Part shown: positions 3,156 through 29,648 of the stretch, piece after piece
Layout: each line of letters begins with the position of its first letter
Numbering within the stretch: the stretch's first letter is position 1
DNA from: Candidatus Kerfeldbacteria bacterium
GTDB lineage: Bacteria > Patescibacteriota > Patescibacteriia > JACPL01
NCBI GenBank assembly: GCA_016182525.1
Contig: JACPGL010000005.1
Span: 1-46,027 of the forward strand
Direction: 5' to 3'
DNA: 46,027 nucleotides
The notes under the pieces: model-generated
What the model saw: the letters and a program-made list of their open reading frames with translations, nothing else
The model's database searches: none
Told to the model about the DNA's origin: nothing
Position numbers and translations under genes: made by a program

Positions 3156-3312
3156 AAAAATACACAGGCGTTTTCCAAACCGGGCTCCAAAACAGTGAAA
3201 AATGGAGCCTGTTTTGTTCACGAAAATGACGCGGCGCCCGTTTGCCTTTTTGCTTCGCAAAAAGTTTTCCGGCCGCTATTTTCGTTCCAAAACATACGCC
3301 TGTGTATTTTTT
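3156..3312. repeat. Copy 2 of dnaA/dnaN-flanking long-hairpin element with ~17-bp terminal inverted repeats
   Basis: aaaaaatacacaggcgt ... acgcctgtgtatttttt ends; internal gttttg..cgaaaat..gcggc arms pair; loop arm ctttttgc-ttc-gcaaaaag. Confidence 0.85.
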
Positions 3313-9847: not shown

Positions 9848-9926
9848 AGAGCATTGCAGGAAATGTATATTTGTGTTCTAGTAAACATACTAGGACATAA
9901 AATACATAGAAAGTCAAATACTTAAT

Positions 9927-16967: not shown

Positions 16968-17147
16968 GCGGCACCAGAATCGATCGGATCGACTCGGCCG
17001 GCCGTTCTTTTACTTTGTCATCCTGAGGTCGCACGGAACGGGCGACCGAAGGATCTCTAAGAGATCCTTCGACTCGCTTCGCTCGCTCAGGATGACAAGG
17101 TATAATCTCAGGATGGTAATTTCGTGGGCGCCGCGTGAAAGAAGTGT
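16957..17147. repeat. Hairpin element (ctttcacgcggcaccagaatcg family) with a nested gtcatcctgag repeat
   Basis: acacatctttcacgcggc ... gccgcgtgaaagaagtgt arms; 16961-16982 identical to 21362-21383; gtcatcctgag...aggatgac nested at 17017-17096. Confidence 0.8.
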
Positions 17148-19216: not shown

Positions 19217-20414
19217 CGGCGTAGAGGTGAAGAATAGAGTCAACATGGCGGGCGAACGTGAATCCCTCACTGTGTATCCTAGCAGATTCTCCGAATTTCG
19301 CGAAAGAGGCAGGGTGATCAAGCGCCCACTGCATTTTTGCGGCAAGATCCGCGGGGTTTTTGGGTTCAAAGAGAAGTCCAGTTACATGATCCTGGACAAT
19401 TTCTGGCAGGGCGCCAATCCGTGAAGCAATCACCGGTGTACCACAGGCCGCGGCTTCCAGTGCGGACAACCCGAACGGTTCCACGAATCGCGACGGGACA
19501 ATCACGCCCCGCGCTCGAGACATGTGTTCAAAAATGTGCTCGTGAGGAACATGCCTCAGAAACTGAACATTCGTCAGTCCGTGTGTTTGCGCAAATGCTT
19601 TGAGTTGGTCTTCGTCTGGCCCTGTTCCAATAATGCGAATGCGCGCTTGTGGGACACGCCGCGCCGCTTCGAGGAGCACGTCACACCCCTTTTCCCACTT
19701 CAGTCGCCCCACAAAGAGCACATGATCTTTTCGTTCCACGCCTTCAACTCGGGGTGATGCGATGCCATGCGAAATCATTCGGATGCGATCAACGGGGTAC
19801 CCAGCACGGAGCAGAAGATCGCGCATACAGATGCTTGGGGCGACGATTGTCGTGACGTGACGATAGAGTTTGAGAACACGATGCAATGCCGTTTCTAGCA
19901 CCACAATCACTGACGCCGTGAGTGACGCGCGGAATCGTCGGTGGAGGAGAATATCCCAGGCCTGTTTCCATGGTCGCCCGACAAGAGCAGTATCTCGCTC
20001 CTCCAGTGTATAGAGTGGTGACACGAGTTTGTGATCATGCGCGGTTAGAACAATCGGGATGTGATGTTTGGCAAGAGTTGTAAGGAGAGAAGGCGAGAGT
20101 TGATGGTAGATGTTGTGTACGTGCGCCACATCCGGTGTGAATTCTGCAAGAAGCGCTTCCAGTTTCTGTTGCGCTTCACGAGAATAGAACAGCCGACCGA
20201 GCGTTTTGAATCCGCTTTTTATCCCGCTCATGTTTTCTGTTTCGACAAACGACGGGAAAAATTGCGACCATGACGTAGGCAGATTTTCCGGGTGAGCCAT
20301 GGCAAATGGCACCACGGTATGGCCGCGTTCTTTAAGCGCCTGCGAAAGTTCGAGCATATACTGATCTGCTCCACCGGCTGGGGAATAGAATTTGTTGATC
20401 TGGAGAATGTTCAT
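19200..20414 (-). CDS. Glycosyltransferase family 4
   Basis: MNILQINKFYSPAGGADQYMLELSQALKERGH; FVGRLKWEKGCDVLLEAAR; EPFGLSALEAAACGTPVIAS. Confidence 0.93.
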   Translation of the reverse strand: MNILQINKFYSPAGGADQYMLELSQALKERGHTVVPFAMAHPENLPTSWSQFFPSFVETENMSGIKSGFKTLGRLFYSREAQQKLEALLAEFTPDVAHVHNIYHQLSPSLLTTLAKHHIPIVLTAHDHKLVSPLYTLEERDTALVGRPWKQAWDILLHRRFRASLTASVIVVLETALHRVLKLYRHVTTIVAPSICMRDLLLRAGYPVDRIRMISHGIASPRVEGVERKDHVLFVGRLKWEKGCDVLLEAARRVPQARIRIIGTGPDEDQLKAFAQTHGLTNVQFLRHVPHEHIFEHMSRARGVIVPSRFVEPFGLSALEAAACGTPVIASRIGALPEIVQDHVTGLLFEPKNPADLAAKMQWALDHPASFAKFGESARIHSEGFTFARHVDSILHLYADVAHA

Positions 20415-21328
20415 GATTTTCGTGCATGAAGAATCCATCCTGATGCGAAGTGGGCGGGCACATGATCGGTGAGTTTTCCATCAAGAGTATCAAGTCGGCG
20501 AAAGAGTGAGAAGTCGCGGCGGATGAAAAACCGTCCCAGGATATAATACAGTTCACGGATAAGAGAAGAGGAACCGCACGCCTGTTCGATCGTGAATCCC
20601 GCCTCTTGAATACGTGAACGAATGGCGCGGAGCGTAAAGAATTGCACGTGTGGGCTGTCGCTCGGGCTTTGCACATCGCGTGATTGCATCATCTGTTTCA
20701 ACCGGCGCTTTGCGTGCTTCGTGACAAGATTGGCATTGGCGATGCGACGCAGGATCTCCTCCACGCACCATCCGTTTGGAACCGTAACGAGCAGCAATCC
20801 GTTTGGCGCTAAGATTTCGCGAGCATGTCTCAGGGCAGAAGCAGGATCCTGCATGTGTTCGAGCACTTCGGACATGATGATCACATCGAAGCTGCCGGCA
20901 GATCCGTTCTTGTCTAATGACGAGAACGGATCTCGTCCGGCGAGGTCACTCGCGAGGAGGTCGCCTGTGGCGACCGACGAAGCAATCCGACCCGAAGGGT
21001 CATCCTGAGCAAAGCGAAGGATCTCTAGAGATCCTTCGGCCTTCGGCTTCAGGATGACAATAGTACCAGTAAGGATATTCATCATCGCTGCCTCTGGAGT
21101 TTTGCGAAGCTCGTCTGTGGCTCGTGCATCCGCGTCAAGAGCGGTCACATCATATCCAAGAGCGGCGAGCGGCCGCGAGATATTGCCCGAACCGCATCCA
21201 ACATCAAGAATCCGGACGGTTTTCGGATCTTGCGGAAATGCGCGGCGAATTGCCGCAACAAAATCCTCCAGCTTGCGCAATCCGCCGGGTTCTCTATCAA
21301 AGTTTGTATGGAGACTCGTATTGACCAT
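20411..21328 (-). CDS. Class I SAM-dependent methyltransferase with an in-frame repeat-derived insertion
   Basis: ILDVGCGSGNISRPLAALGYDVTALDAD ... SFDVIIMSEVLEHMQDPASALRHAREILAPNGLLLVTVPN; about 50 aa between them come from palindromic repeats. Confidence 0.88.
   Translation of the reverse strand: MVNTSLHTNFDREPGGLRKLEDFVAAIRRAFPQDPKTVRILDVGCGSGNISRPLAALGYDVTALDADARATDELRKTPEAAMMNILTGTIVILKPKAEGSLEILRFAQDDPSGRIASSVATGDLLASDLAGRDPFSSLDKNGSAGSFDVIIMSEVLEHMQDPASALRHAREILAPNGLLLVTVPNGWCVEEILRRIANANLVTKHAKRRLKQMMQSRDVQSPSDSPHVQFFTLRAIRSRIQEAGFTIEQACGSSSLIRELYYILGRFFIRRDFSLFRRLDTLDGKLTDHVPAHFASGWILHARKS
20901..20932. repeat. gatccgttctcgtc...gacgagaacggatc palindrome, copy 1 (inside CDS)
   Basis: gatccgttcttgtctaatgacgagaacggatc; also 22971-23002 and 29568-29599. 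Confidence 0.85.
20999..21058. repeat. gtcatcctgag...aggatgac palindromic repeat, copy 2 (inside CDS)
   Basis: gtcatcctgagcaaagcgaaggatctctagagatccttcggccttcggcttcaggatgac. Confidence 0.85.
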
Positions 21329-22910: not shown

Positions 22911-22947
22911 GTCATTGCGAGGTCGCGCTTTCGCGACCGAAGCAATC
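22911..22947. repeat. gtcattgcgag...gaagcaatc palindromic repeat, copy 1
   Basis: gtcattgcgaggtcgcgctttcgcgaccgaagcaatc. Confidence 0.8.
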
Positions 22948-22970
22948 TAGCTAAGGGATTTTTGTCGGCA

Positions 22971-23002
22971 GATCCGTTCTCGTCTACTGACGAGAACGGA
23001 TC
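22971..23002. repeat. gatccgttctcgtc...gacgagaacggatc palindrome, copy 2
   Basis: gatccgttctcgtctactgacgagaacggatc. Confidence 0.85.
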
Positions 23003-24263: not shown

Positions 24264-24334
24264 GTCATCCTGAACCAAGCGAAGCGAGGTGAAGGATCTC
24301 CTCAAGAGATCCTTCGGCTCCGCCTCAGGATGAC
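24264..24334. repeat. gtcatcctga...aggatgac palindromic repeat, copy 3
   Basis: gtcatcctgaaccaagcgaagcgaggtgaaggatctcctcaagagatccttcggctccgcctcaggatgac. Confidence 0.85.
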
Positions 24335-25208: not shown

Positions 25209-25276
25209 GTCATTGCGAGCGAAGCGAAGCAATCTCATAAGATCGTCACGTCGGCCTTCGGCCTCCTCGCAATGAC
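25209..25276. repeat. gtcattgcgag...cgcaatgac palindromic repeat, copy 2
   Basis: gtcattgcgagcgaagcgaagcaatc ... cctcgcaatgac. Confidence 0.85.
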
Positions 25277-29509: not shown

Positions 29510-29648
29510 GATCACGACGGGTGGCAGGCTTGCTCGACCGCCGCGCGAGCCGCTAGACGCCGGACGAGATCCGTTCTCATCAGTAGACGAGAACGGATCT
29601 GCCGGCGAGATAGGCCCGTGCTCGGCGGGCGGGGAGGGACAGGACCCG
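29510..29648. repeat. Dispersed hairpin element (gatcacgacgggtggca...gacaggacccg), copy 2, with a nested gatccgttctc palindrome
   Basis: Ends shared with 9549-9650; nested palindrome at 29568-29599. Confidence 0.75.

Follow-up and report, generated by a model that had tools for sequence, protein, structure and literature searches.

The window analysed here is a stretch of 46,027 nucleotides from a Candidatus Kerfeldbacteria genome (hereafter G000; 1.04 Mb in 63 contigs, 79% complete). It carries on its minus strand a methyltransferase gene (20411..21328) whose translation gave 305 open codons without a stop and whose product belongs to Methyltransf_23 (PF13489, E 1.7e-29 in Pfam). Aligned with its homologues, the protein has conserved the SAM motif LDVGCGSGN, the acidic DAD, FDVIIMSEVLEH and the C-terminal family motifs; the codon score is positive outside the insert described below. 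An O-antigen ligase type gene (Wzy_C) adjoins it in the window, and the same neighbour accompanies the homologues at loci L032 and L033. Searches of viral contigs for relatives of this methyltransferase found none. Residues ~91-145 are encoded by a stop-free block of ~55 codons (20894-21058) made up of three kinds of palindromic unit, termed A, B and C, plus a linker, which in the methyltransferase frame reads VILKPKAEGSLEILRFAQDDPSGRIASSVATGDLLASDLAGRDPFSSLDKNGSAG. This bears out a preliminary description of the locus, which had placed palindromic repeats in frame inside the gene: the peptide it quoted is present, and its coordinates (20895-21066) were right to within a few bases, the edges lying at ~20894 and 21058.

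In coordinate order, the block comprises the C unit (20894..20942), a near-perfect palindrome AGATCCGTTCTTG..CGAGAACGGATCT that reads GCCGGCAGATCCGTTCTTGTCTAATGACGAGAACGGATCTCGTCCGGCG, followed by a B unit variant, GTCACTCGCGAGGAGGTCGCCTGTGGCGACCGACGAAGCAATC, on the plus strand (20945..20987; palindrome GTCACTCGCGAG..GAAGCAATC). A palindromic linker of 13 nt, GACCCGAAGGGTC (20988..21000), joins B to the A unit (20999..21058), which is a head-to-head pair, GTCATCCTGAGCAAAGCGAAGGATCTCTAGAGATCCTTCGGCCTTCGGCTTCAGGATGAC, of the form GTCATCC..GGATGAC. Together these modules fold into three strong hairpins (-90.8 kcal/mol). Across the block taken as 201 bp, the methyltransferase frame is the sole stop-free one, the other five containing 1 to 5 stops. 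Since random genomic windows of the block's length (165 nt) are also open in a random frame ~30% of the time, the open frame by itself is weaker evidence for an insertion than an alignment.

The case for an insertion is carried by the alignment with insert-free homologues. Our homologue search covered 57 and then 381 genomes of the same class, none of them of the same order as the source. In five distinct methyltransferase homologues from this class, ~48 residues are absent at the position of the insert, while both flanks are conserved and colinear; the nearest of them is ~43% identical, because no same-order genome was among those compared. The preliminary description had asked whether the block of ~50 residues is unique and had named homologues with the same peptide as a counter-finding; none of the homologues found carries it. 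It had also proposed modelling the structure to look for a surface loop. In the AlphaFold model, the core reaches a pLDDT of ~80, and insert residues 95-144, which emerge between strands 3 and 4 of the methyltransferase fold, stay below 50 (~30), a low confidence that is only suggestive given that the underlying alignment comprised 3 sequences. The top Foldseek matches of the predicted structure were methyltransferases. With moderate confidence, we thus regard the insert as a predicted disordered loop of ~50 residues.

Taken together, we put at roughly 0.85 the probability that the block arose by compound insertion of REP-like mobile palindromes into a methyltransferase gene that presumably still works and is still translated. 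A C unit and a B-linker-A compound adjoin each other at a single site, the loop between strands 3 and 4. With no stop in the gene's frame and a length that fits, the block should be translated as a loop of ~50 residues, and we infer that this peptide is neutral and that the enzyme retains its activity. Our confidence is strong for the repeats, the in-frame block and the recurrence of such insertions in other genes (see below), moderate for the neutrality of the insert and weak for any function of the peptide. That the gene might instead be a pseudogene, left open across the repeats by luck, strikes us as unlikely: although each unit has several open frames, random windows are not rarely open and maf in the same genome is apparently truncated by an A unit, the 305 open codons, the conserved SAM and C-terminal motifs and the positive codon score outside the insert all speak for an intact gene, as do the retained O-antigen ligase neighbour and the essential genes that show the same in-frame pattern. 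The gene is thus not visibly the pseudogene that the preliminary description had named as a possible counter-finding. Still less probable is a short-read assembly error that put repeats into the gene, for which the 63 contigs and their wealth of repeats may be adduced. Exact matches of the block do not exceed 24 nt at the other fetched loci of its own genome and 22 nt elsewhere in the window, so that the modules can be told apart at ordinary read length; besides, a false join would unite unrelated genes, but both flanks here belong to one gene that is colinear with its homologues.

The three modules had also been said to occur in intergenic DNA, and they do so abundantly. The 201-bp block gave 77 BLAST matches to its own genome, and strict patterns retrieved 57 A (half-unit matches), 28 B and 22 C palindromes from the 1.04 Mb, ~100 in all, with reversed-pattern controls yielding 0; a chance origin of the repeats is excluded. 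We read ~92 repeat clusters in ~196 kb of stretches around the copies and found them mostly intergenic, C copies likewise lying mostly between genes. Examples in the window are B plus C copies in non-coding context (22912..23002), an intergenic C copy, 94% complementary to that of the block (29558..29606), two apparently intergenic A pairs (17018..17095 and 24265..24333) and a short B unit on the plus strand (25210..25234). A subfamily of C carries a DnaA-box-like TTATCCACA in its loop that is repeated outside as an inverted pair (contigs C4, C17, C20, C46, C55, C60 and C61).

A and B are built on a common plan. GTCAT is followed by an outer stem, which is short (ATCCT/AGGAT or ATTGC/GCAAT), by GAG and by a centre that varies between copies and frequently forms a palindrome itself; 51 A units had 36 different centres and 27 B units had 20. 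Within the fetched loci we encountered the B-linker-A compound at 6 sites, tsaD and a prepilin-like gene being among them. A and B make up a second family of palindromes that is widely distributed in the class: among the 381 genomes, A is present in 130 and B in 128, and the genome richest in B contains 133 copies. The exact 31-nt B unit was also found in 27 stretches of viral contigs, and plasmids of Methylosinus and Methylocystis carry B-like stretches. A literature search with the letters of the repeats returned only unrelated primer-type matches.

The methyltransferase is not the only gene affected, as the suggested scan of the genome for further in-frame copies shows. Of 11 gene-internal repeat sites recognised in G000, nine preserve the reading frame without a stop (if frame were random at p 0.25-0.33, a binomial P of 1e-4 to 1e-3), with the reservation that calls were made by inspecting ORFs and codon scores, which may favour intact ORFs and miss frame-breaking copies in unrecognised genes. 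Besides the methyltransferase, these comprise lepA (TIGR01393, 732 bits; ~15 extra residues before GEKYALNLIDTPGH compared with 2ywe), uvrC (19 extra residues before WPIPDLVIIDGG compared with 2nrt), two sites in tsaD (L098:830-1972), valS (little net length change against the T. thermophilus structure), a glycosyltransferase (L119), a membrane protein (L106) and a low-complexity linker (L117). Four further candidates suggested by codon score alone (L059, L069, L075 and L107) were rejected as boundaries between two genes. The prepilin-like gene at L101 was left out of the count because its start may lie beyond the repeat. There, at L101:1301-1379, an in-frame B-linker-A compound separates a start codon (MKKTH) from the prepilin-like MTNGFTLLETII; it either extends the leader or lies upstream of the true start. 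The excess of in-frame sites suggests that gene-breaking insertions were lost by selection, and that tolerable ones may persist as disordered loops.

The two disruptive sites are found in maf (L020/L092) and leuS. An A unit at L092:4777-4802 appears to cut maf short early and is likely a disruptive insertion. A B-type repeat splits leuS into two ORFs (L091:36-1328 and 1238-2551; G000 C41:8958-11443), which match TIGR00396 positions 1-392 and 393-843, and no second leuS copy was detected elsewhere in the 79% complete assembly. At its end, CGCAATGAC, this repeat provides a TGA stop that overlaps with an ATG start (ATGA), and the split reflects either a two-subunit LeuRS made by the repeat or a sequence error. 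Contig C1 begins with the leuS repeat, followed by a near-identical ACCAAAAAAGTGAGTTTTTCTA tail. The tsaD of L098 furthermore lacks ~54 residues that the proteins of Thermotoga and of another genome of the class, G288, possess (DDAA being joined to AVLYE), owing either to an in-frame deletion or to a fault of the assembly. As the split leuS and the gap in tsaD show, not all insertion-bearing genes are intact here.

The strong hairpins of the block and the out-of-frame interruption of the single-copy leuS might suggest that the repeats are excised from the mRNA or bypassed during translation, so that no peptide is made, as with mitochondrial byp elements and T4 gene 60. If such a process were general, the reading frame would be irrelevant, yet it is kept open at 9 of the 11 gene-internal sites, and leuS is explicable by the ATGA overlap within its repeat; we accordingly give removal or skipping very little credence.

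Repeats within genes are not confined to G000. In G288, which belongs to an unrelated genus of the same class, B units lie in frame in a pfkB kinase gene, holA, a reverse transcriptase gene and tsaD, the last at a loop that also carries one of the two tsaD inserts of G000. The units differ between the two genomes, and the inserts are therefore taken as two independent events. Independent hits on one loop could be read as a sign that the inserts, including that of the methyltransferase, are beneficial, domesticated peptides (regulatory loops or binding segments) under positive selection. We think this improbable, for the insert peptides differ among genes and genomes, the methyltransferase insert is predicted to be disordered, and the inserts lie at length-variable loops, where same-loop hits are expected if only tolerant loops survive. 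A broader proposition is that mobile palindromes constitute a lineage-wide source of new coding sequence in Patescibacteria. Here A and B, being open in most frames, would add loops to essential proteins, and leuS would have been split into two translationally coupled subunits; we consider this conceivable but doubtful. Neutral insertion of mobile palindromes into tolerant loops remains our preferred reading.

As to how the palindromes move, G000 contains two Y1_Tnp genes of ~230 codons from stop to stop, RAYT-1 and RAYT-2, which match NCBIfam REP_Tyr_transpos weakly (39.8 and 31.7 bits, under the cut-off of 80). On either side of RAYT-1 (L120:1291-1977, minus strand) stands an 83-nt inverted repeat composed of C, the two being 95% complementary. 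REP/RAYT systems were defined by RAYT genes with inverted REPs on both flanks (PMC2817692), and because inverted C copies bracket RAYT-1 in just this way, we treat C as its REP. The name rests on association with RAYT-1, for which the evidence is strong, and not on a tag: beside the C hairpin no GTAG or GTGG head was seen, the C flanks reading GCCGGC and CGTCCGGC. Judging from RAYT biology, the C unit would most likely have been pasted into the methyltransferase gene as single-stranded DNA by RAYT-1. Five TGTCCAAAGCTTAGCTTTGGACA-type palindromes accompany RAYT-2 (L121:1309-2001), one lying in frame inside its ORF (GVQSLALD) and another encoding its C-terminus; palindromes of this type also occur in the window at 9926, 15113 and 27167. 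Mobilisation of A and B by RAYT-1 or RAYT-2 was considered and rejected, as A and B flank neither gene in this 79%-complete assembly. Among the Y1_Tnp loci of G000 and of other genomes of the class, none had A or B on both sides, though G181 and G342 each possess one Y1_Tnp locus with B pairs nearby, on one side only.

Intragenic REPs have been described in several bacteria, including in uvr genes and tRNA synthetases, where clusters encode 43-82 aa, and have been argued to be neutral and located in flexible regions (PMC3733652). The GTAG and CGTC superfamilies of that 2013 survey resemble the present repeats in being palindromes in frame in unrelated genes, often as dimers or clusters (PMC3733652). 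They differ in their hosts, the present ones being found in a class of Patescibacteria, in that C has no GTAG tag, and in architecture, REPs having stems of 8-9 bp and loops of 4-5 nt where A and B have outer stems of ~5 bp and a variable inner palindrome (PMC3733652). The CGTC superfamily has a 5' CGTC tag (or TGTC/CCTC) and A-T pairs at stem positions 1 and 2. As to the tag, 45 of 56 A units read TGTCAT, the viral B copies are split between CGTC and TGTC, and the B units of G000 are mixed. A and B may thus resemble this superfamily in tag and in AT start, although the AT start was part of our search pattern. The stem of 8-9 bp, the loop of 4-5 nt and the CCA tail of that superfamily were not seen as such in A and B, in which stem and loop lengths differ and a CCA tail is not the rule.

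The preliminary description had likened the insert to Rickettsia palindromic elements, and the comparison holds up as regards arrangement. As in Rickettsia, palindromes sit in frame in many unrelated protein genes, encode surplus peptides and have extragenic copies; in-frame insertions absent from homologues were found here in the methyltransferase, lepA, uvrC, tsaD and others. The differences lie in the phylum and in the cognate RAYT for C. By analogy, the repeats thus appear to work like these elements, the likeness being one of arrangement, and the taxon and the transposase evidence point to REP/RAYT elements. The two classes are not foreign to each other, as RPE-4 and RPE-6 of Rickettsia conorii have been equated with CGTC REPs (PMC3733652); the frequency in Rickettsia was called unusually high in a 2024 review (PMC10969869). 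With REP/RAYT systems (PMC2817692) and REPINs (PMC3116915), G000 shares a Y1_Tnp gene between inverted copies of an abundant palindrome and compounds comparable to BIMEs. In contrast to these systems, its RAYTs score below the NCBIfam cut-off, and RAYT-2 holds its own palindrome inside the ORF. Among the open-licence papers searched, we found no report of REPs or RAYTs in Patescibacteria. We thus place the repeats with a known kind, hitherto described from Rickettsia, Proteobacteria and few others, in a new lineage and with a cognate RAYT for one unit.

This extends the conversion of repeats into protein to ultra-small Patescibacteria with compact genomes. Insertions that are tolerated in single-copy essential genes (lepA, tsaD, uvrC and tRNA synthetases) would reveal free loops, and the tsaD loop struck independently in two genera offers a natural test of insertion tolerance. 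RAYT-1 together with the C palindrome represents a testable mobiliser for one unit. For annotators, the present data imply that VIARSEATKQS, SLRGAKRRSN and EILRFAQDD in these proteins should be taken as repeat-derived segments and not as domains. Apart from the units treated above, the window contains a perfect direct repeat of 87 nt (1-87 and 3209-3295), its copies 3.2 kb apart, in an inverted-repeat environment (ACGCCTGTGTATTTTTT).
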